Shown one piece after another: positions 6,643 through 18,397 of a stretch of 64,000 bases of DNA (positions within the stretch are counted from its first letter, which is position 1; each line of letters opens with the position of its first letter). The DNA is from Psychrobacter cibarius (lineage in GTDB: Bacteria > Pseudomonadota > Gammaproteobacteria > Pseudomonadales > Moraxellaceae). Below the pieces are notes generated by a model, which was not told the DNA's origin, did not search any database, and saw only the letters and a program-made list of their open reading frames with translations. Location of the stretch: NCBI GenBank assembly GCA_030686115.1, contig CP131612.1, positions 682,001-746,000 on the forward strand. The letters run 5' to 3'. Made by a program: the position numbers and the translations under genes.

Positions 6643-7476
6643 TTAGTTCTTTCGAGCATCATTTAACAAGCGATTAGCATCTGAAAATATACCGTTTATA
6701 TTTCTCGATTTTAGACCTTTAATATTCATTGCATCAATATATTCTGCAAGCCCTGCTTGTGTTGGTTGGTTTGTACTTTTACTAATGTCTGTTTTAAAGT
6801 GATAAGCATTAGTATCAGGATTAAGCAGTAAATCTTTTAAGACTGATATCAAGTGATAGGCGCTATCTTTGAGGTTTAACTCTTTATCATCGGATGGGCT
6901 GTCCTTCTTATCATCAGCTGAATAATAGCCATTTTTTTCAAGCATATTTATAATATCTAAAATATAGAACTTAATATCATTTTCGCTAAAATACGGGTCT
7001 ATAATTTCATCTTTTGGATTTTCAGTTGATAATAAAATGTGGTCGGTCACATGTAAAGGAGTTCTCCTAAATATATCTCCCTTTGGGTTTGATTCTCGAT
7101 TTGGTAAAGAGTGGTTAGGTATTATTTGATAATCTACTAGGTTTTGGATAATGAAACGTCTGTGTTCAATTGGATTTTTAGAATTTACGATAGCTTCACC
7201 ATGTAAAATATAAAAATATCCTTTAACATGATTTGATTGTGCTGAATAATCTATATCTCCTGACCATTCATTCATGTCTTTAAAGTCTTCGGGGTATGGT
7301 GAATACAGTTTGTTTGTCCATGTTGCGCCATAACCATCAAAATAGATTATTGGCTGTAGTTCTTTTTTCACCACAAGATCAAACAAGTTGCCCTTATTAA
7401 AAAAAGGTACTTTCGTAAACTCTTTAATTAGTTTGACGGTATCTTCAATACCTAAATAATCACTAAGACTTCTCAC
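6643..7476 (-). CDS. Hypothetical protein with structured leader, related to 15554-16792
   Basis: 277 aa, GTG start at 7476 with GAGGTG just upstream. The function is unknown. The C-terminus (HLISVLKDLL ... IFSDANRLLNDARKN) aligns with that of the 412-aa protein at 15554-16792 (TIGLLLELM ... RFSDANSILSDAKKK). The N-termini also share a YLxI start and a PxxxxxGY element. The middle parts differ. Both genes have the same conserved leader. This copy lies outside the 24-bp repeats that bound the element, so it may be left from an earlier insertion. No signal peptide or membrane segment is seen. A defence or regulatory role is speculation. Confidence 0.7.
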   Translation of the reverse strand: MRSLSDYLGIEDTVKLIKEFTKVPFFNKGNLFDLVVKKELQPIIYFDGYGATWTNKLYSPYPEDFKDMNEWSGDIDYSAQSNHVKGYFYILHGEAIVNSKNPIEHRRFIIQNLVDYQIIPNHSLPNRESNPKGDIFRRTPLHVTDHILLSTENPKDEIIDPYFSENDIKFYILDIINMLEKNGYYSADDKKDSPSDDKELNLKDSAYHLISVLKDLLLNPDTNAYHFKTDISKSTNQPTQAGLAEYIDAMNIKGLKSRNINGIFSDANRLLNDARKN

Positions 7477-7490
7477 GCTTACACCTCTAC

Positions 7491-7575
7491 ACCTTTAAAT
7501 CAAAGTAGGTGCAAGGCAGTACCAGCCTAAAGGTTTGTGAACGACTGGCTTTAGTTACTCATCGTGCCTTGCAAG
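7491..7575 (-). ncRNA. Conserved structured leader RNA, copy 1
   Basis: On the minus strand, the coding sense of the gene at 6643-7476, an outer stem TGCAAGGCA (7565-7573) / TGCCTTGCA (7510-7518) encloses an inner stem GCCAGTC (7543-7549) / GGCTGGT (7521-7527). About 55 bases (7495-7550) match copy 2 at about 16810-16897 with four differences. Two of these change G-U pairs here to G-C pairs there. It ends about 34 nt before the start codon. It may be a regulatory leader or a separate small RNA; no known family is recognised. Confidence 0.6.
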
Positions 7576-7632
7576 ATCTTCATTATTTTTTACTATATCA
7601 CCCATCATACAATCACCAGCCAAATTTAGCAC

Positions 7633-7669
7633 AAAAAAAGCCAACCATTGAAAACAATGATTGGCTTTT
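7633..7669 (-). terminator. Probable original terminator of tRNA-Pro
   Basis: Perfect or near-perfect 12-bp stem (AGCCAACCATTG / CAATGATTGGCT on the plus strand) with a 4-nt loop. On the minus strand it ends in a run of seven T. It lies just outside the left 24-bp repeat. Before insertion of the element it would have been directly downstream of tRNA-Pro, so it is probably that gene's native terminator. Confidence 0.75.
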
Positions 7670-7680
7670 CTCTTTAACTA

Positions 7681-7704
7681 CTATGTTTGGTCGGAACGGC
7701 AGGA
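7681..7704. repeat. Left attachment site core of the island
   Basis: 24 bp identical to 18314-18337, including the sequence of the tRNA-Pro T-arm and acceptor 3' side (GGTCGGAACGGCAGGA). Identity ends exactly after AGGA, and here only the tRNA fragment is present. This is the displaced copy expected at the distal end of an element integrated in a tRNA gene. Confidence 0.88.
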
Positions 7705-7757
7705 AGTAAAGTAAAGGCTGTATGCCTTGAAATATATAGGTTGTATATTTTTATATT

Positions 7758-8024
7758 TTAACGATACCAACAATAATACCAACAATCGTTTTTAATATCT
7801 CTTATTTCTTCTATCTTGATTGGCACAGCATATAACCATTGCATACCACCATCACAACGAAAACAGCCATTCTCAAACGCTACGATATAAGCTGTAAAGT
7901 CGTTACCTTCATGATCCATCATTGCTTGCTCGTCGCTGTCATCGCAAACTGCACACCATATTCTTTTATAGCCATGTTTTAACATTGCGCGAGTTAACTC
8001 ACTACCTCTCAACTCTTTATCCAT
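7758..8024 (-). CDS. Hypothetical 88-aa protein at the left end of the island
   Basis: The start has a perfect AGGAGG about 5 nt upstream. Four Cys occur in the body (WCAVCDD, GCFRCDGG) and more in the aromatic tail (CWYYCWYR). The two CxxC pairs could bind a metal. The last codons overlap the integrase arm-type repeat at 7764-7784, so the odd Trp/Tyr/Cys tail may simply be encoded by that DNA site. Family not recognised. Confidence 0.6.
   Translation of the reverse strand: MDKELRGSELTRAMLKHGYKRIWCAVCDDSDEQAMMDHEGNDFTAYIVAFENGCFRCDGGMQWLYAVPIKIEEIRDIKNDCWYYCWYR
7764..7784. repeat. Integrase arm-type site, left arm
   Basis: A 21-bp stretch identical to 18200-18220 in the same orientation. 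It contains two ATACCAACA units about 11 bp apart. It lies about 60 bp inside the left core repeat, as expected for arm-type sites bound by the integrase N-terminal domain. Confidence 0.65.
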
Positions 8025-8972
8025 AACGCCTCCTAACGGTAAGTCATAAGGTTATGTGTTTAAATTTAGCAAAAAAAATATTAGGCGTAATACTAATTTC
8101 AGATAAGCGGTAAAGTAAATTTCAATTAAAGCATTCTGGACGATAGAAATATTTATGACATTTAATCCGCGTACAACATGATAGGGCGGTGTGCACTTGC
8201 AATTCGTTTGCATGGGGTTGTTTTGCTAATGTCTGCACACGCTCAATAATGGCACTTAAATGCGTGCGTATTTCGTGCGTTTTCTTTGCCTCTGCTAATT
8301 CACGCCATTGGCGGTTATCTGCTCAATAGGTTTTTACACATTATAAAAAAGGCGTTCACTTGTCGCAAAATTAGCTTTAACCTGCTTTAACCTCTTTCTG
8401 AAACGGTTTTTTTCTTGTGCGTGTGAATAGGGGCGCTCTTATGTGTTTTGCCTGTTTAATCTCGATTGATAGCCCCCCTCGATACCTGTGCGAAAACTAC
8501 CCCTTTTATGGACTCAAGAAAGTCCCCTCACGATGTCCAAAAACCTACCCAAGTCCTTTTTAAAACAGTCCGAAAAACTATCCCTTTTTATGGACTCCAA
8601 AAACTAGGCAACGGCAAGGTTCAAGCCAACATTGCGCGGTGTGTGATTTGGTTTTCAATGACAGGTTTTGACAGGTTCTACTATGTCAGGGTTCAGGTTT
8701 TCTCAGGTTCTCAATGTTAAGTTTTATTAAGTCGGCATAGGCTGCCAACGTTAACAAATGTTAACAGGCAAAGCGGTGCTGTTCACTTTTCGATGTTAGG
8801 TTTTGTTAGGTTCTTAATTCCGCATTTGGGGTGCGGAACGTTGGGTTTTATTGGGTTCTAACGTGTCCGAAAACCAACCGTAATCTTGCCGTTATTCTTA
8901 TCCTTTGATATGCGAGATAACCAAAATAGGATTTATCTATAATCCGTTACAGCCCTCCTATAATTCAACCCT

Positions 8973-9036
8973 AAAACTGCCTTGTAATCCATGCCTAGCA
9001 ATCGTTTGCGCCTCATTCGCTTTTTGGCAATCCGTA
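8973..9036. repeat. 64-bp diverged repeat, copy 1
   Basis: Begins AAAACTGCCTTGTAATCCAT and ends TTTTGGCAATCCGTA. The second copy at 9246-9309 has the same length and the same ends with substitutions between. The copies are 273 bp apart. Confidence 0.6.
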
Positions 9037-9245
9037 TCTAAATAGTTAATTTAAACCACGGTTAATACGCTCAATTTTGAGCCTATCTATCTTTTAATAC
9101 GGCTATTGCGGTGCATATCAGCTATAAGCCTTGCATGGGCTGCCATTGGGTCATTTCGTATCATGTGGTATAACAAAATCACGTTTAATACGCGCAAAAC
9201 TGCTCATATCAATTTAGGTTTACAGCCCCATGCTGATTTGCCGTT

Positions 9246-9309
9246 AAAACTGCCTTATAGCCCATGACTAGCCAGCGGTTGCTCTCCATTGGAGTTTTGG
9301 CAATCCGTA
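9246..9309. repeat. 64-bp diverged repeat, copy 2
   Basis: Begins AAAACTGCCTTATAGCCCAT and ends TTTTGGCAATCCGTA; partner of 8973-9036. Weaker relatives are discernible near 9110-9180 and 9390-9480, which suggests an old tandem array. Confidence 0.6.
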
Positions 9310-9620
9310 AACACTGGTAAACCTAAATCATGCTTAATGCGTCCAAAAATGGACTTATCTATTTTGTTTGACGGCTCTATGCTGTTTTAGTGAGGCTGCC
9401 ACGCTGTAGGCTAATGATGGTCATGCTTTGCGGTAGCACTTGCCCCATTGGGGGTTATGCAATCGGTAAAACGTGGTAAAAAGAATTATGCTTTTAAACC
9501 TTAACATAACTTAACATGCTGCCAGTCATCAAACTGGTTTGAATGTCAACAAATGACAACATGCTGCCCGTGAGTATTGAGCGCTTAACCTTAGGTTTCC
9601 CCTAGGTTTTTGCAGCCCAT

Positions 9621-9650
9621 AAAAAAGGGCGTACCAAACGGTACACCTTT
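9621..9650 (-). terminator. Terminator after the toxin-antitoxin pair
   Basis: On the minus strand, stem GGTGTACC / GGTACGCC (one G-U pair) with loop GTTT, then a six-T run. It lies about 35 bp past the antitoxin stop codon. Confidence 0.75.
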
Positions 9651-9683
9651 TGATTAACTCATAATTTAATACCTAATAAGCAG

Positions 9684-9989
9684 TTAAGCCTCTAAAAAAG
9701 GTTCGGCTTTAGGGGTTAGGGTAACTTGTAAGCCCATGCCGTCAATAATCTTTAACATGGTGTCAAAACGTGGCTTCTCTGATCGCAATGTCTTGTAAAG
9801 GCTTTCGCGTCTTATGCCTGTCTTTGCTGCCAGCTCGTTCATGCCCTTTGCTTTTGCTACGTCATTTAATGCTTCGATAAATTCGCTAGGTGCGCCATCG
9901 GTCAATATTTCGTTCAAGTAAGCATTGATAAGGGTTTCATCTGTCAGGTATTCCGCTACGTCAAAACGGCTAGTTTTAATATTAGTCAT
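9684..9989 (-). CDS. Antitoxin, HigA-like (XRE-type) of a type II TA pair
   Basis: 101 aa from ATG 9989, which has AGGA upstream. The C-terminal half holds a helix-turn-helix (MNELAAKTGIRRESLYKTL) and ends LQVTLTP as in 'addiction module antidote' proteins. Its start overlaps the end of the toxin gene by 8 bp, so the order is toxin first, as in higBA systems. It should neutralise the toxin and repress the shared promoter. The terminator at 9621-9650 closes the unit. Confidence 0.85.
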   Translation of the reverse strand: MTNIKTSRFDVAEYLTDETLINAYLNEILTDGAPSEFIEALNDVAKAKGMNELAAKTGIRRESLYKTLRSEKPRFDTMLKIIDGMGLQVTLTPKAEPFLEA

Positions 9990-10308
9990 TGGGGTGTTCC
10001 TTTTCTTGATCCTTAACTTGCTGCCATAAGGTGCAAGCCTTAGAAATGTCGTTTGTTTGGCTGTCTTTACTGCCACCTATCAACAATAGATAGAGGGTAT
10101 TGCCTTGCTGGGCATAATAGACACGGTAACCATTGCCTTTAAATATTCGCATCTCATAGATACCGTTTGTATTGGCTAATGGTTTATGGTCACCAAAGTT
10201 ACCGCCTTGCGCTCGCTTGATACGTGCCAATATGCCAACTTTGCCTAACGGGTCTTTAAGCTTATGCAACCAACGTTCAAACTGTTCTGTTTGGTCAATA
10301 TTAATCAT
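9982..10308 (-). CDS. RelE/ParE-superfamily toxin (HigB/Gp49-like)
   Basis: 108 aa. Features include a compact start (TEQFERWLHKLKD), ARIKRAQGGNFGDHKPL, YEMRIFKGNGYRVYY and LLLIGGSKDSQ followed by a basic tail. This is the pattern of phage-derived Gp49-like/HigB toxins, which cleave mRNA on the ribosome. The gene precedes and overlaps its antitoxin. It probably stabilises the island. No good ribosome-binding site is seen before the ATG, consistent with weak toxin translation. Confidence 0.85.
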   Translation of the reverse strand: MINIDQTEQFERWLHKLKDPLGKVGILARIKRAQGGNFGDHKPLANTNGIYEMRIFKGNGYRVYYAQQGNTLYLLLIGGSKDSQTNDISKACTLWQQVKDQEKEHPND

Positions 10309-10323
10309 AGGGGTAGATTATTA

Positions 10324-10348
10324 GTAAACTTATAATTTATTGTAAACT
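10324..10348 (-). promoter_or_regulatory. Possible operator of the toxin-antitoxin pair
   Basis: Two direct GTAAACT repeats (10324-10330 and 10342-10348) are 18 bp apart in AT-rich DNA just upstream of the toxin start. Spacing of nearly two helical turns suits a dimeric HTH antitoxin. The promoter itself is not clear-cut. Confidence 0.4.
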
Positions 10349-10470
10349 TTTGGATAATATATAACAAGCTATGACTGTGCTTGCTGTGTTGTTTATTGTT
10401 GATCCACAAAAAAAGGCAGACGGTAAACGCCTACCTTTGATTATTTTTGTCTGCATCTACTTTTTTGCTT

Positions 10471-10669
10471 GGGACACTTGGGACAACGGGACAACGCCCG
10501 TACTTACTGGCTTTCAGCTGTCCCAGCCCTTTTTTAGCCTTTGGGACACTTGGGACAGATTAACAAATTGAGCTATTTTGTCCCAGCTGTCCCAGTGGTG
10601 TTTTAACGCTTGGGACAGGTTCTAGCCCTTGCTGTGTATGGGTTGTCCCAGTTGTCCCAGCTGTCCCAG
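10471..10669. repeat. Array of a 9-bp repeat in both orientations
   Basis: Twelve copies of TGGGACA or its complement TGTCCCA occur: 10471, 10480, 10489 (first base changed), 10518, 10542, 10551, 10579, 10588, 10611, 10644, 10653 and 10662. Within clusters the period is exactly 9 bp. The array starts in the last codons of the DUF927 gene, encoding GTAGTTGTT, and continues past its stop codon, so coding alone does not explain it. It may be protein-binding iterons or a structured 3' end. Confidence 0.7.
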
Positions 10670-13103
10670 TGCTTTTAGTAGTTTCATAACTTAATATGTC
10701 GCTTTTGACTGCATAAACGCGCGAACGGTTCTTTTTAAACGGTAAAGCAACTTTACACGTTTTGCGGTCGCTTTCTGTCACGTTTAATAGTCCAGCCTCA
10801 TCTAATACTTGTAAGACTTTGCTTTTGTTAAAGGGCGAACAGACTTCATCAAACGTACTGGTAGAGAAATAATATTCCCCTGTGTCGTAGTTATGATAGC
10901 CAGCACGGTTGGTTATCTTGGGTTCAAAATCTTGGTATGTGTGAATGTGGCAAGGCTGAAAGCGACTTGATCCGTGCTGTTCAATAAACGCCTTGATATG
11001 CTCTATGGTTTGGCGCTGCTCATGCTCACCATCACGCCCATAGTTATCAAGCCAATTATCTAAGCATGTCATAACGGCTGTGGTTGCTTGTCCTGCTTGC
11101 CAGCCTGTAATACCTGCCAGTGTTGCCATCTCACCAGCAGCAGCCACAATAGCGAACCTTTTAGCCACTCTATGCGCTTGTGGTGCAAGGTCGCTGTATT
11201 GACTCATAAAGTCACTTACAAGCTGCCTAGCGGTGGCTGTGGTCGCTGCTTTGTCATTGGTGATATGTTCTAGCCATACGATACCAGCTGCACCATAGTA
11301 AGTGTGTGATAACTCCTTGATCTTATCGGCTTGTGCTGCGCCTGTGTCTGCCAGTACCAAACTATCAAACGTCTTTAAACCTTGACCAGCATCAGCATCA
11401 ATATGCGCTACTCGAACCTCAATACCTGCATTGGTTTTTTGTCCTGCTTGCGCCATAAAGTTCTGTAGTGACTCTTCACCATTAGATAGGAAAATAATGC
11501 GCCATGTCTTAGCAGTGCGATTATGTCCTGTGGTAGTGCTACGTCCTTTGCCTTTGCCATTAGCCAGCATGTAAACGCTGTTACCTACTATCCGTGGATC
11601 ACATTCGCTGATTTCATCAAGTGGTAGGAAACTGTCGTTATGCTCGCTTGCTGTGCCCTCTAAGGCGTTATCAGTGCTGCGCCATGTCTTAGTATAGCTG
11701 TCAGGCTTGCCCCATACGCTAGACGCTGTTTTAAGTGATAATGACTTACCCATGCTTGATGATCCTAAAAGGTGAAAGCCGCCCCCATCATCATCTAACA
11801 GTTCAAGTAATTGACCAGCAAACGCGCAAGCAATAGAGAAAACAAAACGGCTCTGTTCTGCTAGCTTTTTACATAGTTCATCACGCCATTGGTCTAGTGT
11901 ACCTTGCTGGGCTATGGTGCTGTTGATTGCATGGGCAGACTGATAGACGATTAACTGCCTACCATCGCTGCCTATTGCGCCATCAGGTAATATATATTGC
12001 TCATCATGCCAGCCCAACCTATCTACGCATAACGCCCGTTTGTGAATAGGGTAGTTTTGAATATAGGTGTCTAAGTAGCTGCGCTGTTTGCTATTGGTGG
12101 TAATGTTCAATCCTTGACTAGCAAGCTCCTTGCGGTATTCCCTTGCATCACCTTGTAGCAGTGATAACGGCATTGACCATGTATGTGGCACGTTATCATC
12201 ATCACGCCATTGCAATAACCGCCCCCATGTTCCGCTGCTTGTGTCCCTAGTCTTAGCGATAACCTCAATCGGTGAACAAACAAACGCCTTAAACTTAAAG
12301 GTTATGTTTGCTGGGTCGTCATCGTTATATTTCACAAAAAATAGCCCGTCATGGTATAGCTCAAAACGCCCATCACTGTAGGTCATAGGTTCATTCAGCT
12401 GTGGATCATCGCGCCATTCAGGATAGTAAGCGGTATCTTTTAAATTGATTAGCTGGGTGTCATCAGCTGCCAGTATTGCCTCATAGCTATGGTTAGCATG
12501 TAGCATCGTGACAATATCAGCCATAGTAACCAATGCCCTAGCATTCACACCTGCCAATAGATTTATCATGCCTTTGTTATCTATGGTCATTGGTACGGTT
12601 AGCAGTGATCCGCTGCTCCAGTGCTGCACCATCTTTTTAAAGCATTGCTTTGTCTTTTGAGGGCTAATAATAAAGGTTGTTTTGTCGTCTGCCATACACT
12701 GATACGCATCAATGCCATATTCTGCATCATCAAAAGCAATTATCTCATTAGCTTTGTTTAAGTCACCAATGACGATAGCGCCATAACCTGTAGGATCAAT
12801 AACAATGGGCTTGGCTTTGCTGTTTGGTGTGTAGAATATCGCGCCTACAATATCGCCTTGTTTATCGGTGATTGCTATAGCTATCGTGCCAGCTGTCGGT
12901 ACTAATGCCGCGTCATCTGTAGTAAGATTGTCGGTGACGTTGAGCAAGCTATTAGGCGGTAGTAGGTCAAATAGTTTAAGTAATAGCTTATCGTTTGCCA
13001 GTCCTTGCCGTGTGACTGCATCAAAACTATTCATTACCACTGTAAAGCCTGTGCTAAATGCACGGGCTTTTTCATGAGTGGCTGTTTGTGGTGTGGTGGT
13101 CAT
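10560..13103 (-). CDS. DUF927 family P-loop ATPase, probable replication helicase
   Basis: 847 aa. DUF927 spans about residues 230-560. It has a Walker A motif GSSSMGKS near residue 447 and an acidic LPLDEIS (Walker B-like) near 495. The segment IIFLSNGEESL near 537 could be a sensor. The N-terminal 200 residues are not recognised and could hold a primase/toprim-like part; that is speculative. Such proteins are commonly the replication ATPase of satellites and integrative elements. It ends the alpA-led operon, with a 4-bp overlap with the 37-aa gene. The C-terminus is Gly/Thr repetitive because of the 9-bp repeats. Confidence 0.8.
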   Translation of the reverse strand: MTTTPQTATHEKARAFSTGFTVVMNSFDAVTRQGLANDKLLLKLFDLLPPNSLLNVTDNLTTDDAALVPTAGTIAIAITDKQGDIVGAIFYTPNSKAKPIVIDPTGYGAIVIGDLNKANEIIAFDDAEYGIDAYQCMADDKTTFIISPQKTKQCFKKMVQHWSSGSLLTVPMTIDNKGMINLLAGVNARALVTMADIVTMLHANHSYEAILAADDTQLINLKDTAYYPEWRDDPQLNEPMTYSDGRFELYHDGLFFVKYNDDDPANITFKFKAFVCSPIEVIAKTRDTSSGTWGRLLQWRDDDNVPHTWSMPLSLLQGDAREYRKELASQGLNITTNSKQRSYLDTYIQNYPIHKRALCVDRLGWHDEQYILPDGAIGSDGRQLIVYQSAHAINSTIAQQGTLDQWRDELCKKLAEQSRFVFSIACAFAGQLLELLDDDGGGFHLLGSSSMGKSLSLKTASSVWGKPDSYTKTWRSTDNALEGTASEHNDSFLPLDEISECDPRIVGNSVYMLANGKGKGRSTTTGHNRTAKTWRIIFLSNGEESLQNFMAQAGQKTNAGIEVRVAHIDADAGQGLKTFDSLVLADTGAAQADKIKELSHTYYGAAGIVWLEHITNDKAATTATARQLVSDFMSQYSDLAPQAHRVAKRFAIVAAAGEMATLAGITGWQAGQATTAVMTCLDNWLDNYGRDGEHEQRQTIEHIKAFIEQHGSSRFQPCHIHTYQDFEPKITNRAGYHNYDTGEYYFSTSTFDEVCSPFNKSKVLQVLDEAGLLNVTESDRKTCKVALPFKKNRSRVYAVKSDILSYETTKSTGTAGTTGTTHTQQGLEPVPSVKTPLGQLGQNSSIC

Positions 13104-13213
13104 CTATTCCCCCTTACTTGCGACTGGTTCGGCTTGCGCTGCTCTCTATACTTCTTGTAGTAGCTTTTGCGCTTGGCGTGCTTACGGCTTTGCTTTGGTG
13201 GGTAGGTTTTCAT
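13100..13213 (-). CDS. Small very basic peptide, 37 aa
   Basis: Starts MKTYPPKQSRKHAKRKSYYK and ends QSQVRGNR; about 14 of 37 residues are Lys or Arg. Its ATG shares one base with the stop codon of the gene upstream, and its stop overlaps the DUF927 start (ATGA). It therefore fills an otherwise unexplained 110-bp gap with translational coupling on both sides. It could bind nucleic acid or assist replication. It is too short for family assignment. Confidence 0.6.
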   Translation of the reverse strand: MKTYPPKQSRKHAKRKSYYKKYREQRKPNQSQVRGNR

Positions 13214-13794
13214 TATTTGCCCACCTTGCTATAGCCAGTCATTGCTAGGGTGTCGTTAATGCCCTCTAATTTTTCATATAGTAGGCTTGCCCATGTGTCG
13301 GTAGCATCATGTGCTAGGCGTGCCAGTGCTGGGGCTGTGTGCGCTTCTATCTTGTCATAGTGAATGAGTGCCAGTAATTGACCAACATCATACAAGGCAG
13401 TAGCAGCCCCGTTAATGTCACAAGCAATATCTGATAAATCATGTGACGACATTAAAATCACTTCGTCATCATCGGCGGCAGTAGTGTCTATAACTGTACG
13501 CTGGCTTGATTGGTTGCCACTGTATAGCGTGGCTATTGCTTGGCGGTTTGCTGGCGTGTCATGGAATAGTGAGGGCAATACATAGCAGTCATCATGATAT
13601 GCCCTGCCATCAGCGCGATATAAGCACTCAACATTGCCAATATTGATAGTTAGGCAGTCGTTTGACTTTTTGACTAGGGTATAAGTGCCATTGCCTACAG
13701 ACGGGCATAGCACGCTATCACCTGCCTTGAATATGGCTGGTGTGCTGTTAGTAGTGGTTTGAGTGTTTGAGGTCGTACGGATTGATTTAGGCAT
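13213..13794 (-). CDS. Hypothetical protein, 193 aa, island operon
   Basis: Start ATG 13794 with a strong GGAGG just upstream, overlapping the previous gene by 8 bp. The N-terminal half resembles a small beta domain (GDSVLCPSVGNGTYTLVKK ... CLTINIGNVECLY) and the C-terminal half looks helical (ATALYDVGQLLALIHYDKIE, LARLAHDATDTWASLLYEKL). No catalytic motif or family is recognised. Its position before the DUF927 gene suggests a replication or regulatory accessory. Confidence 0.65.
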   Translation of the reverse strand: MPKSIRTTSNTQTTTNSTPAIFKAGDSVLCPSVGNGTYTLVKKSNDCLTINIGNVECLYRADGRAYHDDCYVLPSLFHDTPANRQAIATLYSGNQSSQRTVIDTTAADDDEVILMSSHDLSDIACDINGAATALYDVGQLLALIHYDKIEAHTAPALARLAHDATDTWASLLYEKLEGINDTLAMTGYSKVGK

Positions 13795-14314
13795 GATAGC
13801 CTCCTAACGTTTTTTGAGTTAATGCCACGCTATACGGTAAAAGTATAGGGTGACGGGTCTTACTCTCGGTAACGTTAGTAACCGCCCTGCATATTCGCCT
13901 TACGGCTATTTTATTTTGCAGCGTCAACCCGTCATAGTCGGTCAGCAAGTGACTTGCTGTAGATATGAGGGAATGCCCCCTTGTTACGCTTAAGTGCGTG
14001 TTTGGGGCTATGCTTGATGGTATAGAGACAGCTTGAGAGGCTGCGCTATTATCAGGCACAAAAAAAGCCAATAATGTACGACTTGGCAAGTCGCTAACGT
14101 TTTTCGAGAGGTCTATATAGTAACCATTGTTGGTATTGGTTGCAATCGGTTTTGGTTGTACTGGCTGGCACGCGATTAGTGACAGTAACAAGCCAATACC
14201 TGCCACCCATGCCATAAAAATAGTAAACCTAAGTAGTAAGCTACGTTTGTGGGGCTGGTTGTCGCTGTGCTGCCCGTGGTCGGCTTTTAGGTCATTTCTG
14301 TTATCGTTGGTCAT
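13787..14314 (-). CDS. Hypothetical membrane-anchored or lipoprotein-like protein, 175 aa
   Basis: A polar N-terminus of about 25 residues precedes one hydrophobic segment (FTIFMAWVAGIGLLLSLIAC). LSLIAC could be a lipobox with Cys at about residue 49, though the long N-terminal tail is unusual for a signal peptide. The remainder is soluble and unrecognised. It overlaps the upstream gene by 14 bp and the downstream gene by 8 bp in the alpA-led operon. Confidence 0.6.
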   Translation of the reverse strand: MTNDNRNDLKADHGQHSDNQPHKRSLLLRFTIFMAWVAGIGLLLSLIACQPVQPKPIATNTNNGYYIDLSKNVSDLPSRTLLAFFVPDNSAASQAVSIPSSIAPNTHLSVTRGHSLISTASHLLTDYDGLTLQNKIAVRRICRAVTNVTESKTRHPILLPYSVALTQKTLGGYHA

Positions 14315-14588
14315 TTCTTACGTCCTCCACGTTAAAGGCGATTTCTGCTATGCGTTTGGATAGCTCTTTTAGTGACTCCACTTGTCGGCTGCCTGTTGGT
14401 ATTACACAGCGTAAAGCTAGCATCTGATTTTCTACTTCTACTATCTCCATCAGGCTGTTAATGGCAGTCACATTGGCGTGTAAAGTAATGATTAACTGGT
14501 CGATAAAGTCATCAGGTATCATCAGCACGCCCTTGTCTTTTAGCCTGTCCATGACTTCATTTATAAAAGTGTCATCACTCATAGTCAT
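14301..14588 (-). CDS. Hypothetical protein, 95 aa, island operon
   Basis: Acidic, mainly helical protein (FINEVMDRLKDKG, FIDQLIITLHANVTAINSLMEIVEVENQMLALR). It overlaps both neighbours by 14 bp, so it is translationally coupled. The next gene upstream is also a 95-aa acidic helical protein of similar size, but I see no clear homology between the two. Function unknown. Confidence 0.6.
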   Translation of the reverse strand: MTMSDDTFINEVMDRLKDKGVLMIPDDFIDQLIITLHANVTAINSLMEIVEVENQMLALRCVIPTGSRQVESLKELSKRIAEIAFNVEDVRNDQR

Positions 14589-14862
14589 TCACCTTGATTT
14601 CAGGCGCTAATATAAGCTGCTCCATGATGTCCTCGCTTATTTCCTCAGCGTGTTGGCTTATTCTAAATAAAGCGGACTGTACGGCTGTTAAAACGCCTTT
14701 GCTGGTGGGGTCGTCTGCTAATGCCTTGTTTAGTGCATTGAGTGCATAACCTAAGCTCTCACATTCGCTTGAATAGCTTTGAATGTAGTCATCTACTACG
14801 CTAAGCGTATGGCTATCGACTGCCACTAGGCACGGTTCTAATATGTCGTTTGATTGGCTCAT
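14575..14862 (-). CDS. Hypothetical protein, 95 aa, island operon
   Basis: Acidic and mostly helical (CESLGYALNALNKALADD, VLTAVQSALFRISQHAEEISEDIMEQL). The start overlaps the stop of the winged-helix gene by ATGA, and the end overlaps the next gene by 14 bp. No family is recognised. The tight coupling indicates a genuine gene. Confidence 0.6.
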   Translation of the reverse strand: MSQSNDILEPCLVAVDSHTLSVVDDYIQSYSSECESLGYALNALNKALADDPTSKGVLTAVQSALFRISQHAEEISEDIMEQLILAPEIKVNDYE

Positions 14863-15107
14863 GATTGCACCTCGTTAGCGTTATTATCTGTTGGCTGGTC
14901 TATCCAGTAGCGTTTGAAGCGTTTGCCGTTGTTCTTTACCCATTCATCTTGAATGGTTACGCCTTGATCTCTTAGCTCACTGACACGCTGTAAAAAGCAC
15001 GTTATGTTGTAGAGGTCGTACGCTTCATAAGTGGATAGAGTCTTACCTGCTAACAGGTGATTAAGAATGATTTGCTTGTACTTCTGCTTTGTTTGCCGTG
15101 TGTTCAT
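14859..15107 (-). CDS. Winged-helix DNA-binding protein (HTH_39-like)
   Basis: 82 aa. The pattern ILNHLLAGKTLSTYEAYDLY ... FLQRVSELRDQGVTIQDEW ... RYWI fits the small winged-helix domain common in prophages and satellites (HTH_39-like). It begins 3 bp after alpA, with GAGGTG in the end of alpA as ribosome-binding site. It probably acts with AlpA in element control, or as an excision or replication accessory. Confidence 0.65.
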   Translation of the reverse strand: MNTRQTKQKYKQIILNHLLAGKTLSTYEAYDLYNITCFLQRVSELRDQGVTIQDEWVKNNGKRFKRYWIDQPTDNNANEVQS

Positions 15108-15110
15108 GGG

Positions 15111-15401
15111 TTACACCTCGCTAGTGGTTGAGGTGTGAGAGTTAAGCCATTCGTGAACGTCTGCATAGCTCCACGCTGTCATGGTAGGGCTTAGCTTTCT
15201 GCCAGCTGGGAAACGCCCATCTTTTGACCATTCAAACAAAGTGGTTTTGCTAAAAGGTAAGAACGGCAAAATGTCCTTTGCTCTGCCCATGCCAGTAGTA
15301 GGCAGTTGCATAGCTGGGCTGTTTGCGGTGGTTGGTTCGGTGTCGTGAGGGGTGTTATCAGTAAAAGGAATTACTGGGGTGTTTTGGGTTGGGTGTGTCA
15401 T
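15111..15401 (-). CDS. AlpA-family / MerR-like HTH regulator
   Basis: 96 aa from ATG 15401, with GGAG 9 nt upstream. A GTG at 15416 in the same frame is less likely. The C-terminal half LPFSKTTLFEWSKDGRFPAG ... WSYADVHEWLNSH is the AlpA HTH pattern. AlpA proteins in P4-like elements activate integrase or excision functions. It heads the operon running to the DUF927 gene. Two CCCTANNTGGGG motifs lie in the upstream region and may be its operator. Confidence 0.85.
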   Translation of the reverse strand: MTHPTQNTPVIPFTDNTPHDTEPTTANSPAMQLPTTGMGRAKDILPFLPFSKTTLFEWSKDGRFPAGRKLSPTMTAWSYADVHEWLNSHTSTTSEV

Positions 15402-15480
15402 TGTGTGTAGCTCCACTAAATGACGCTACGGTATGTAACGTCCAGTGGTTCTACTTTAGGGGGTAGGGTTATTTGCAGCA

Positions 15481-15514
15481 CCCTAGCTGGGGTGAAGTCA
15501 CGCCCTAAATGGGG
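15481..15514 (-). promoter_or_regulatory. Possible operator upstream of the alpA operon
   Basis: Two near-palindromic motifs CCCTAGCTGGGG (15481-15492) and CCCTAAATGGGG (15503-15514) are 22 bp apart, about two helical turns. They are in the 150-bp gap before alpA. They could bind AlpA or a phage/host regulator. Confidence 0.45.
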
Positions 15515-15553
15515 TATGAGTTTATTTTGGGGTGGTGTCTCATCATGGTTATA

Positions 15554-16792
15554 TTATTTCTTTTTTGCATCACTCAAAATAGAATTAGCATCACTAAAGC
15601 GAGTTTCTAAAGTGCTTTTACCTTGTCCGTATATTCCTTTATCTGTAATTTCACTAATAATGACTGCTTGGCTTGAAAATGGTTGTTTATGGTCAATTCC
15701 TTTAGGCGTGACCATCAATTCTAATAATAAGCCTATGGTAGTCTGATAGCTTTTTTCGGTACGTTCACTCAATTGTTGATAGTCATCAGCTGGCTTGTCT
15801 GCCAGTGCTGCATTAGCTTGTGCTAATTGGTTCTCAAGGTCTGATATTTTGGCGTTTGCTGCTGTTAATCTTTTAATAATTTGCTCATTATTCGGGGGTT
15901 CAGTTTGCGTTACTGTGGGCGCTGGTATCTTGTCGGTATCGTTTGGCAGATTGTCATTAAAACCCCTAATAATGAAGTTGTAACGAGCAAGCCATAATTT
16001 TACTTGTTCAGCTGGTATCTGTTCTTTATCGTTAATAGGATTTAATGCTTTTGCCTCTATTGCGTTGCTTACCATATCTTTGTAAGCGTTATATTTATCA
16101 TCATTATGGCTATATGCTGGGTTATCGTTAGATAATAAGCAAGTGACTTGGTGGGGAGTGAATAGAACATAACTAACAAGCAGTCTTTGGCTGCCAGTCG
16201 GCTCTATTAGGTCATTTCTTGCATTCATGTCCGCTGTAACACTATCTCTTATTGTTTTAGCAGCATTCATATAAAATTCAAACTCATTTTGTGCGTTATC
16301 GTATGATTTTTTGACGTTAAATAAATTGATTAACTCATTTCTTGAAAAACGCACCTCATCAAAATCAATATTTGAATATTTAAGGTCATCGAGCTTATCA
16401 ACTTCTCCAATAGGGGGATTTTTAAACAAAAAAACTTCATCAAAAACACTATATGCCTTACTTTGCTGTTTAATAATTTTCTGAATAGTAAAAGGCGAAT
16501 GTATTTCTATCCATTCGGGCACGTCAGCATCACCAAATGTTGAGTAACTCTCATAATTCCTAGTTTGGTGCATAAAAAAATCATCATGTGTGAAATAGGC
16601 TTTCATTTTGTCATAACGAATTGTTTTATAATTAATATCAGGATAGCTAACGTAACCACTGAACAAAAATACTGGGGTAAGCTTTTCAATATTGCTTAAT
16701 TCCTCAAGGGTTGAACCATCTATTTTTTCGCCCGTTAATTCAAAAACAAAGTCAATGGCTTGCCGTATAGATAGATATTCTTGCACTAACAT
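15554..16792 (-). CDS. Hypothetical cargo protein with structured leader, 412 aa
   Basis: Function unknown. The N-terminal about 280 residues form a globular, mixed-charge region with no motif I recognise. A polar linker follows (about 285-305), then a coiled-coil-like helix (IIKRLTAANAKISDLENQLA) and a C-terminal module (TIGLLLELM ... RFSDANSILSDAKKK). That module is shared with the protein at 6643-7476. The start ATG 16792 has AAGGTG upstream. The gene lies between int and alpA and carries the conserved leader at 16810-16897. In P4-like satellites the DNA beside int is often cargo, frequently anti-phage; that context is the only hint of function. Confidence 0.75.
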   Translation of the reverse strand: MLVQEYLSIRQAIDFVFELTGEKIDGSTLEELSNIEKLTPVFLFSGYVSYPDINYKTIRYDKMKAYFTHDDFFMHQTRNYESYSTFGDADVPEWIEIHSPFTIQKIIKQQSKAYSVFDEVFLFKNPPIGEVDKLDDLKYSNIDFDEVRFSRNELINLFNVKKSYDNAQNEFEFYMNAAKTIRDSVTADMNARNDLIEPTGSQRLLVSYVLFTPHQVTCLLSNDNPAYSHNDDKYNAYKDMVSNAIEAKALNPINDKEQIPAEQVKLWLARYNFIIRGFNDNLPNDTDKIPAPTVTQTEPPNNEQIIKRLTAANAKISDLENQLAQANAALADKPADDYQQLSERTEKSYQTTIGLLLELMVTPKGIDHKQPFSSQAVIISEITDKGIYGQGKSTLETRFSDANSILSDAKKK

Positions 16793-16809
16793 AACTCACA
16801 CCTTTACAC

Positions 16810-16897
16810 ACCCTTAATTCAAAGTAGGTGCAAGGCAGTGCCAGCCTAAAGGTGTGTGAACGGCTGGCTTTCGGGTAATTAGTCCTAGCCTTGCATA
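16810..16897 (-). ncRNA. Conserved structured leader RNA, copy 2
   Basis: Minus-strand outer stem TGCAAGGC (16888-16895) / GCCTTGCA (16829-16836) encloses inner stem GCCAGCC / GGCTGGC, fully Watson-Crick. The inner loop GTTCACACACCTTTA matches copy 1 (7491-7575) except for one base. It ends about 35 nt before the start codon, as in copy 1. It may be a cis-acting leader or a small RNA partner of the protein. Confidence 0.6.
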
Positions 16898-16914
16898 GTC
16901 GTTACAGCATGATG

Positions 16915-18156
16915 TTAGCCATGCTTTTGTGTCTGTTGTTTGAAGTCTGCACGGATCACGTTGTCCAGCTTGCCAGCGTAAGCGTTATCAATGAAGTTTG
17001 CCCACTCATTCATCATCTTGGTTCTGTATGGTAGGTGCTGCGCTCCATTGTATGCCTTGCTGATCTTGTTTTCTTTTTCATGTGCCAGCTGTAGCTCTAT
17101 CGCTTCGTGCATGTATTCCTGTTCGTGTAGGGTAGTGCTGGCAAGTCCACGGAAACCGTGCCCTGTCATACGTCCTTTATAACCCATTCGCCATAGGGCA
17201 GTGATAAAAGCGTTTGTACTGTATGGCTTACGGGTTGAGGGGTTAAAGAAAACGTACTGATCTGAAAAACCTAGCGCCTTGATCTGCTCCAGTAGTGCCA
17301 TTGTTTGCGGTGCAAGTGGTACTAGGTGTGGTCTATCCATTTTCATTTTATCGGCTGGTATGCGCCATACCTTAGCTTTGTAGTCTATCTCTGACCACTC
17401 CATGAACCTAAGTTCTTGAGTACGCACAAACGTATAGCATAAAAACCATAAGCCTAGCTTCACCAGTAGATCACCATCATAAGCATTAATGTCTTGAAGT
17501 AGTTTAGGTAGTTGCTGGCTGGTCACACGGCTGTGGTGCTTCACCTTATGCGGTTTTAGTGCTTCGGTTAGGTCGGTGGCTGGGTTGAGGTTGGTTAAGC
17601 CCTCACGTATAGCTTGTTTGAATATCTGCCCCGTTTGACGCATTGCACGCCTTGCCATATCACTAGCGCCCCTCGCTTCGATAGCTTTACCGATAGCCAA
17701 AACATCAGGCGCGGTTATGTCCTCTATATTCATGTGACCAATGACGGGTTTAATATCGCGCTGGTACTGTGAATAGTCACGGCTATAGGTAGTAGGGGCA
17801 ATATGTGCTTTGCGGTCATCGTGCCAACGCTGGGCTATGGTATCGAACGCCCTTGATCCGTCATTGTCTGCTTGTGTCTTTTTCTTATCGTCTTTTGGGT
17901 TGATACCATCAGCTATTAATCTTTTGATCTCAATATTGCGCTGACGTGCGTTTTGAAGGCTCATTACTGGATAAGTGCCAATAGTGAGGGTTTGCTGCTT
18001 ACCTTGCCAGCGATAGGCGCTGATCCATGACTTAACGCCCGTATAACGCACCCATAATTGCAGCCCGTTACCGTCACTGTGTTTATCAGGTCGCTTTGTA
18101 TCAATCGAGATGGGGCTAGGTGATAGCTTGTTGATACTGGTATGGGTTAGGGGCAT
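16915..18156 (-). CDS. int: Tyrosine-type site-specific integrase
   Basis: 413 aa, the usual length of P4-type integrases. The N-terminal DUF4102-like arm-binding domain covers about residues 1-90 (GLQLWVRYTGVKSWISAYRW), then a core-binding domain, then the catalytic domain. Visible catalytic residues are Arg245 (RTQELRFMEW), His333-x-x-Arg336 (HGFRG), His359 and Tyr369 (KAYNG). The start has AAGGA 8 nt upstream. It integrates and excises the island at tRNA-Pro and sits next to the right attachment site. It appears intact. Confidence 0.95.
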   Translation of the reverse strand: MPLTHTSINKLSPSPISIDTKRPDKHSDGNGLQLWVRYTGVKSWISAYRWQGKQQTLTIGTYPVMSLQNARQRNIEIKRLIADGINPKDDKKKTQADNDGSRAFDTIAQRWHDDRKAHIAPTTYSRDYSQYQRDIKPVIGHMNIEDITAPDVLAIGKAIEARGASDMARRAMRQTGQIFKQAIREGLTNLNPATDLTEALKPHKVKHHSRVTSQQLPKLLQDINAYDGDLLVKLGLWFLCYTFVRTQELRFMEWSEIDYKAKVWRIPADKMKMDRPHLVPLAPQTMALLEQIKALGFSDQYVFFNPSTRKPYSTNAFITALWRMGYKGRMTGHGFRGLASTTLHEQEYMHEAIELQLAHEKENKISKAYNGAQHLPYRTKMMNEWANFIDNAYAGKLDNVIRADFKQQTQKHG

Positions 18157-18313: not shown

Positions 18314-18337
18314 CTATGTTTGGTCGGAACGGCAGGA
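18314..18337. repeat. Right attachment site core of the island
   Basis: 24 bp identical to 7681-7704, overlapping the last 17 bases of tRNA-Pro. Insertion keeps the tRNA gene complete because the element carries the 3' end sequence. Confidence 0.88.
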
Positions 18338-18397
18338 TTTGAACCTGCGACCACTACACCCCCAGTGTAGTGCGCTACCAGACTGCGCTACGCCCCG
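18321..18397 (-). tRNA. tRNA-Pro (anticodon GGG)
   Basis: 77 nt including an encoded CCA end. The acceptor stem CGGGGCG / CGTTCCG pairs with two G-U pairs. The anticodon stem CTACA / TGTAG carries loop CTGGGGG with anticodon GGG. The T arm is GCAGG-TTCGAAT-CCTGC. Its 3' end is the integration target of the adjacent island. Confidence 0.97.

Follow-up and report, generated by a model that had tools for sequence, protein, structure and literature searches.

Two genes in the 64,000-nucleotide stretch of Psychrobacter cibarius DNA analysed here (contig CP131612.1, positions 682,001 to 746,000; hereafter the window) are preceded by leaders that resemble each other more closely than do the proteins behind them, which raises the question of what the leader does. 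The two leaders agree at 92% over 64 nt (7489-7552 against 16808-16871), and the inner-stem strings GCCAGTC/GGCTGGT and GCCAGCC/GGCTGGC, with the G-U to G-C changes between them, are as a preliminary description of this sequence had them. The genes that it called divergent are so in the sense of unlike sequence (proteins 28% identical over 88 aa, E 9e-4); both lie on the minus strand. This genome has two copies according to both a pattern search (at most 3 mismatches) and a covariance model. In our view a satellite-type mobile element probably uses the leader as a C4/CI-like antisense repressor RNA.

The element and the genes behind the leader

The features to which the argument refers are as follows.

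6643-7476, minus strand: gene behind copy 1, 277 aa, no family
7480-7488 (R2) and 7489-7497 (R1), minus strand: target repeats of copy 1, with weak fit to its own loop; start GTG at 7474-7476
7506-7573, minus strand: leader RNA core, copy 1 (solo copy, outside the left attachment repeat); model match 68.0 bits
7681-7704: left attachment repeat, 24 nt, with an identical right copy at 18314-18337
10560-13103, minus strand: DUF927 protein (PF06048, E 6e-88), presumably the replication protein of the element
15111-15416, minus strand: AlpA-like regulator (PF05930, E 2e-7) behind the hypervariable gene
15554-16792, minus strand: hypervariable gene behind copy 2, 412 aa, no family
16796-16805, minus strand: target repeat R2 of copy 2, overlapping the presumed ribosome-binding site, as read from the sequence; start codon 16790-16792
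16806-16817, minus strand: target repeat R1 of copy 2, predicted to form a 12-pair helix with its own loop, 2 of the pairs being G-U
16825-16895, minus strand: leader RNA core, copy 2 (integrase-linked); model match 99.1 bits and covariation
16888-16895 with 16829-16836, minus strand: P1 of copy 2, 8 pairs
16884-16885 with 16873-16874, minus strand: P2 of copy 2, 2 pairs
16862-16868 with 16840-16846, minus strand: P3 of copy 2, 7 pairs
16847-16861, minus strand: antisense loop (P3 loop) of copy 2
16915-18156, minus strand: integrase (Pfam), directly upstream of copy 2
18321-18397: tRNA-Pro, with the right attachment repeat at its 3' end

Between the 24-nt repeats the integrase gene, copy 2, the hypervariable gene, the AlpA gene, small genes and the DUF927 gene all run leftward. 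The left end holds an addiction-module antidote-type gene (PF21716, 9684-10076) overlapped by a small frame (9982-10308), and a stretch without an assignable gene (8040-9680) containing two 90-nt copies that are 73% alike (8947-9036 and 9220-9309), which is perhaps a replication or packaging site.

Comparison of related loci shows that this gene order recurs. An integrase match lies upstream in 100 of 141 loci, within the sequence available for each; an AlpA match lies downstream in 71, a lower bound because 37 loci have at most 2.9 kb downstream; and a primase-type match occurs in 42, many loci having too little sequence, while a few have AlpA or primase upstream instead. The RNA mostly stands between the integrase gene and a hypervariable gene that heads the element's AlpA-to-primase genes. 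The next gene falls into 51 full-length similarity groups among 106 picked frames, which include six shorter than 150 aa and a few (at least one) wrongly picked. Those downstream proteins that were scanned matched no known family, apart from weak hits which we do not trust. Constant linkage of the leader to proteins ending in FSDAN...L had been expected, and the C-termini in fact differ widely. Many database relatives of the 15554-16792 protein (P0030-P0118) are highly identical to it over part of its length only, and many relatives of the 6643-7476 protein likewise match part of the query at high identity, so that protein parts seem to have been exchanged and the downstream proteins seem, from these alignments, to be mosaics with exchanged ends. 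The proteins behind the RNA are very diverse; the RNA itself is not.

Fold of the leader RNA and complementarity of its loop

Both leaders in the window can be drawn as a three-helix RNA (P1, P2, P3), and it is comparison that establishes this fold. After five weak or partial sequences and five duplicates were removed from 106 leaders, 96 distinct leaders were aligned; 93.3% of their paired cells (P1 8, P2 2 and P3 7 pairs) can pair, against 87.6% in shuffles and 27-38% with slid partners, and 91 cells are changed on both sides against 25.4 in shuffles, such changes falling at 11 of the 17 pairs. A covariance model was built from 44 of these leaders; in 39 of its hits (35 distinct; 37 new relative to the first set; two are the window copies), 94.5% of cells pair against 82.3% when shuffled, in an alignment itself fitted to the model. 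The covariation anticipated by the preliminary description is therefore present in the 96 leaders and again in the model hits. G-U cells outnumber A-C cells in P1 (28 against 8) and P3 (36 against 12), counted as cells and not as events, and this excess favours an RNA of the coding sense. Single-sequence folding of the window copies was not significant (z -0.91 and -0.82), so that the fold is invisible to that approach, and the minimum-energy fold of copy 1 is without P1. The earlier view of a structured, coding-sense regulatory RNA accordingly stands. Its author had the leader structure but overlooked the central feature, namely that two tandem repeats lie 3' of P1 to which the P3 loop is antisense, and that the second of these overlaps the ribosome-binding region.

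Comparison likewise establishes this complementarity and the co-change of loop and targets, which in every case share a transcript, some 25-45 nt from each other. Over 96 loci the duplex of each loop with its own target averages -15.4 kcal/mol against -13.1 when permuted (0 of 5000 permutations as good), and the own target beats shuffled targets in 97 of 97 integrase-linked loci. Because leaders are related, co-change was assessed on disjoint nearest pairs of integrase-linked loci with different loops (n=37): the own fit was better in 25, the swapped fit in 6, and 6 were ties (p 0.0009). Of 96 integrase-linked loci, 76 have a helix of at least 7 pairs in the 18 nt preceding the start and 20 lack one; in the upstream repeat window 79 of the 96 have it. 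Counting loci with a helix of at least 6 pairs is cruder and hardly separates own targets (93/96) from swapped ones (mean 91.7); L085, L087 and L091 have no such helix, and L147 has a poor loop fit (-4.2). The loop CACACC occurs with the target GGTGTG in 51 of 52 cases, CATGCC with GGCATG in 7 of 8, CATACC with GGTATG in 7 of 8 and YGCACC with GGTGC in 11 of 15; by this tally, loop and target types switch together. In the loop-target helices G-U pairs number 196; if A-C is admitted in their place, the figure is 90.

Within the window element, the loop's five best-scoring windows on the transcribed strand are all downstream, over R1 and R2 (-13.8 to -14.9; the next is -12.3). On the opposite strand the loop finds better-fitting windows than the targets (-16.2 at 8628-8655), so energy alone cannot single out the targets in this element. 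A search for sigma-70-like promoters found none at copy 2 and two weak sites at copy 1, where 1.2 were expected; the sequence upstream of 30 of the 97 integrase-linked loci, when read, was mostly integrase coding.

Known antisense repressors and the proposed mechanism

The fold has the topology of C4 RNA (RF01695, phages P1 and P7), with P1 enclosing a small P2 hairpin and a long-loop P3. C4 and the Acinetobacter baumannii Group 1 sRNAs, as described in PMC5320573, are similar in size to the leader RNA, are also spread over mobile elements and likewise direct an antisense loop at the ribosome-binding region of a phage-type gene, the C4 loops acting on the ribosome-binding sites of their targets. 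P1 has 8 pairs in the leader RNA and 17 in the C4 model, and what we found in the leader is a single loop whose two tandem targets follow immediately 3', whereas PMC5320573 describes C4 with two antisense segments, a' and b'. As for membership of the Rfam C4 family, the C4 model misses the leaders (copy 2 at E <=10, eight relatives at E <=1, the window at the gathering score), and over 105 genomes of the genus it gave, under strict filters, 3 hits, none at a leader. A CC follows P1 in 81 of the 96 leaders, no more than a hint of an acceptor-like end that might be compared with the RNase P-cut 5' end of C4. The small RNA isrK (RF01394) likewise belongs to phage-type elements and is partnered by a C4-like RNA, but has no match at the leaders examined; in two loci of the genus (L108, L109), away from leaders, a true Rfam C4 RNA stands next to isrK. 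No Rfam family matched at the leaders examined, whether in the searches of copy 2 and eight relatives or in the scan of the whole window.

The CI RNA of satellite phage P4, as described in PMC4825925, binds two sites by base pairing and halts transcription of the replication genes of its element. The leader RNA resembles it in having one antisense stretch with two complementary sites and in standing at the head of a satellite replication operon, AlpA being downstream at the frequency given above. It differs from that description in that its second target is the ribosome-binding site and both its targets are downstream, where CI has seqA upstream; the arrangement of one upstream and one downstream target is absent from the window element, where the five best transcribed-strand windows are all downstream. 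On its anatomy the leader would work like C4 and CI, yet it fails the C4 model and differs from CI in target placement. We found no paper naming this RNA in the open literature searched, and it appears to be an undescribed family, different from C4 and CI and absent by name from Rfam 15.

We infer the following mode of action. An RNA of about 71 nt would be processed from the leader transcript and fold into P1-P2-P3; its loop would pair with the two tandem repeats directly 3', the second of which lies where ribosomes bind for the next gene, and so block translation of that gene. Polarity would probably bring down the AlpA-to-replication genes behind it as well, and together these effects would keep the integrated element quiet. 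Acting in trans, the same RNA would make the cell immune to newcomers of the same loop type.

The leader might instead be purely cis-acting, with the P3 loop forming a pseudoknot with one of the two repeats as a switch or attenuator responding to a protein or small molecule, and with no separate RNA. The presence of loop and targets on the same transcript speaks for this, and two alternative partners would suit a switch; against it, the many loop types with matching targets resemble specificity groups, for which a cis switch has no need, and the topology is that of a trans-acting RNA. Cis action is compatible with both counterpoints, and we regard it as an unlikely reading.

Solo copies, remaining alternatives and distribution

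Copy 1 stands just outside the left attachment repeat of the element. Among 134 loci, 97 are integrase-linked (a hand-made list from the locus context table), 26 are solo, that is, 94-159 nt from the tRNA-Pro attachment core and without an integrase, and 11 are other. Comparison of the two classes establishes that solo loops fit their own targets less well (-11.4 against -15.6, p 2e-6), six solo copies still fitting at -15 or better. Loops of full elements score -13.1 on solo targets and solo loops -10.3 on element targets, so the loss is in the loop; copy 1 follows suit, with -9.6 kcal/mol for its own duplex against -14.2 with the loop of copy 2. These data fit a loop maintained while an element needs silencing; the simpler account of the solo state is that selection on a remnant has relaxed.

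Poorly fitting loops mean that the solo gene would escape its own RNA, and the solo copies might then be domesticated, the hypervariable gene being a resident guard silenced by the RNA of newcomers in an RNA-level arms race over one gene. Loops of full elements do fit solo ribosome-binding sites (mean -13.6 over 23 same-genome pairs, -13.1 over all pairs), and a frame of at least 150 aa is kept at 24 of 26 solo and 90 of 97 integrase-linked loci. Of the 26 solo copies, 21 have the hexamer TATGAT upstream, mostly at a distance of 28-31 nt from the leader, against 3 of 97 integrase-linked ones; it is a candidate hexamer, counted after the sequences had been inspected. Median dN/dS (0.234 over 8 solo pairs, 0.218 over 50 integrase-linked pairs) does not separate time spent in an element from time spent solo. 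We think domestication doubtful.

An operator at the DNA level, with loop and repeats as three binding sites of an element-specific protein, would account for three copies of one motif, one of them inverted, that change together, and such a protein could explain part of the co-change. The stems nevertheless covary like RNA, G-U exceeds A-C in stems and loop-target helices alike, and the motif is located in the P3 loop of the fold, all of which make a DNA operator quite improbable. It is very improbable that the RNA binds the protein encoded behind it as in type III toxin-antitoxin or RNA-linked defence systems, as had first been suggested: a structured RNA does stand directly ahead of a variable gene in a mobile element, and the frame survives at most solo loci, but the proteins are very diverse where the RNA is not, the loop's match to the ribosome-binding site is left unexplained, and the proteins scanned match no type III toxin family, nor any other toxin or defence family.

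A blastn search with copy 2 gave matches in 68 of 105 genomes of the genus and the covariance model in 75; at family level the model found the RNA in 92 of 348 genomes and 3 of 16 genera, and in an order-wide sample in 9 of 390 genomes, all nine within the family. Pattern-matched leader stretches came from Psychrobacter by name in 48 of 49 cases and from Moraxella in one, and Moraxella is among the other genera with the leader, one stretch being identical over 600 nt to a Moraxella sp. record. The phage records searched gave no match, and 14 stretches of viral contigs carry the leader. Three Psychrobacter plasmids share the order repM, integrase, leader, hypothetical gene, antiterminator and helix-turn-helix genes, one of them with an extra gene between integrase and leader; additional genes also occur ahead of the antiterminator. 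Plasmid pA17P3 (L034 10669-10758) has an sRNA-Xcc1 match slightly under the gathering score (48.3 against 53 bits), and at L105 3413-3616 roughly 115 nt separate the matches to the leader core and to the target part, as though something had been inserted.

If the proposal is true, Moraxellaceae elements would have in the leader a common switch for quiescence or immunity, present in 75 of 105 genomes of the genus and unnamed in Rfam 15. The RNA marks a slot of hypervariable genes, those scanned matching no known family. Its matched loop and target types, together with solo copies whose fit has been lost, would open RNA-specified immunity groups and their evolution to direct tests.
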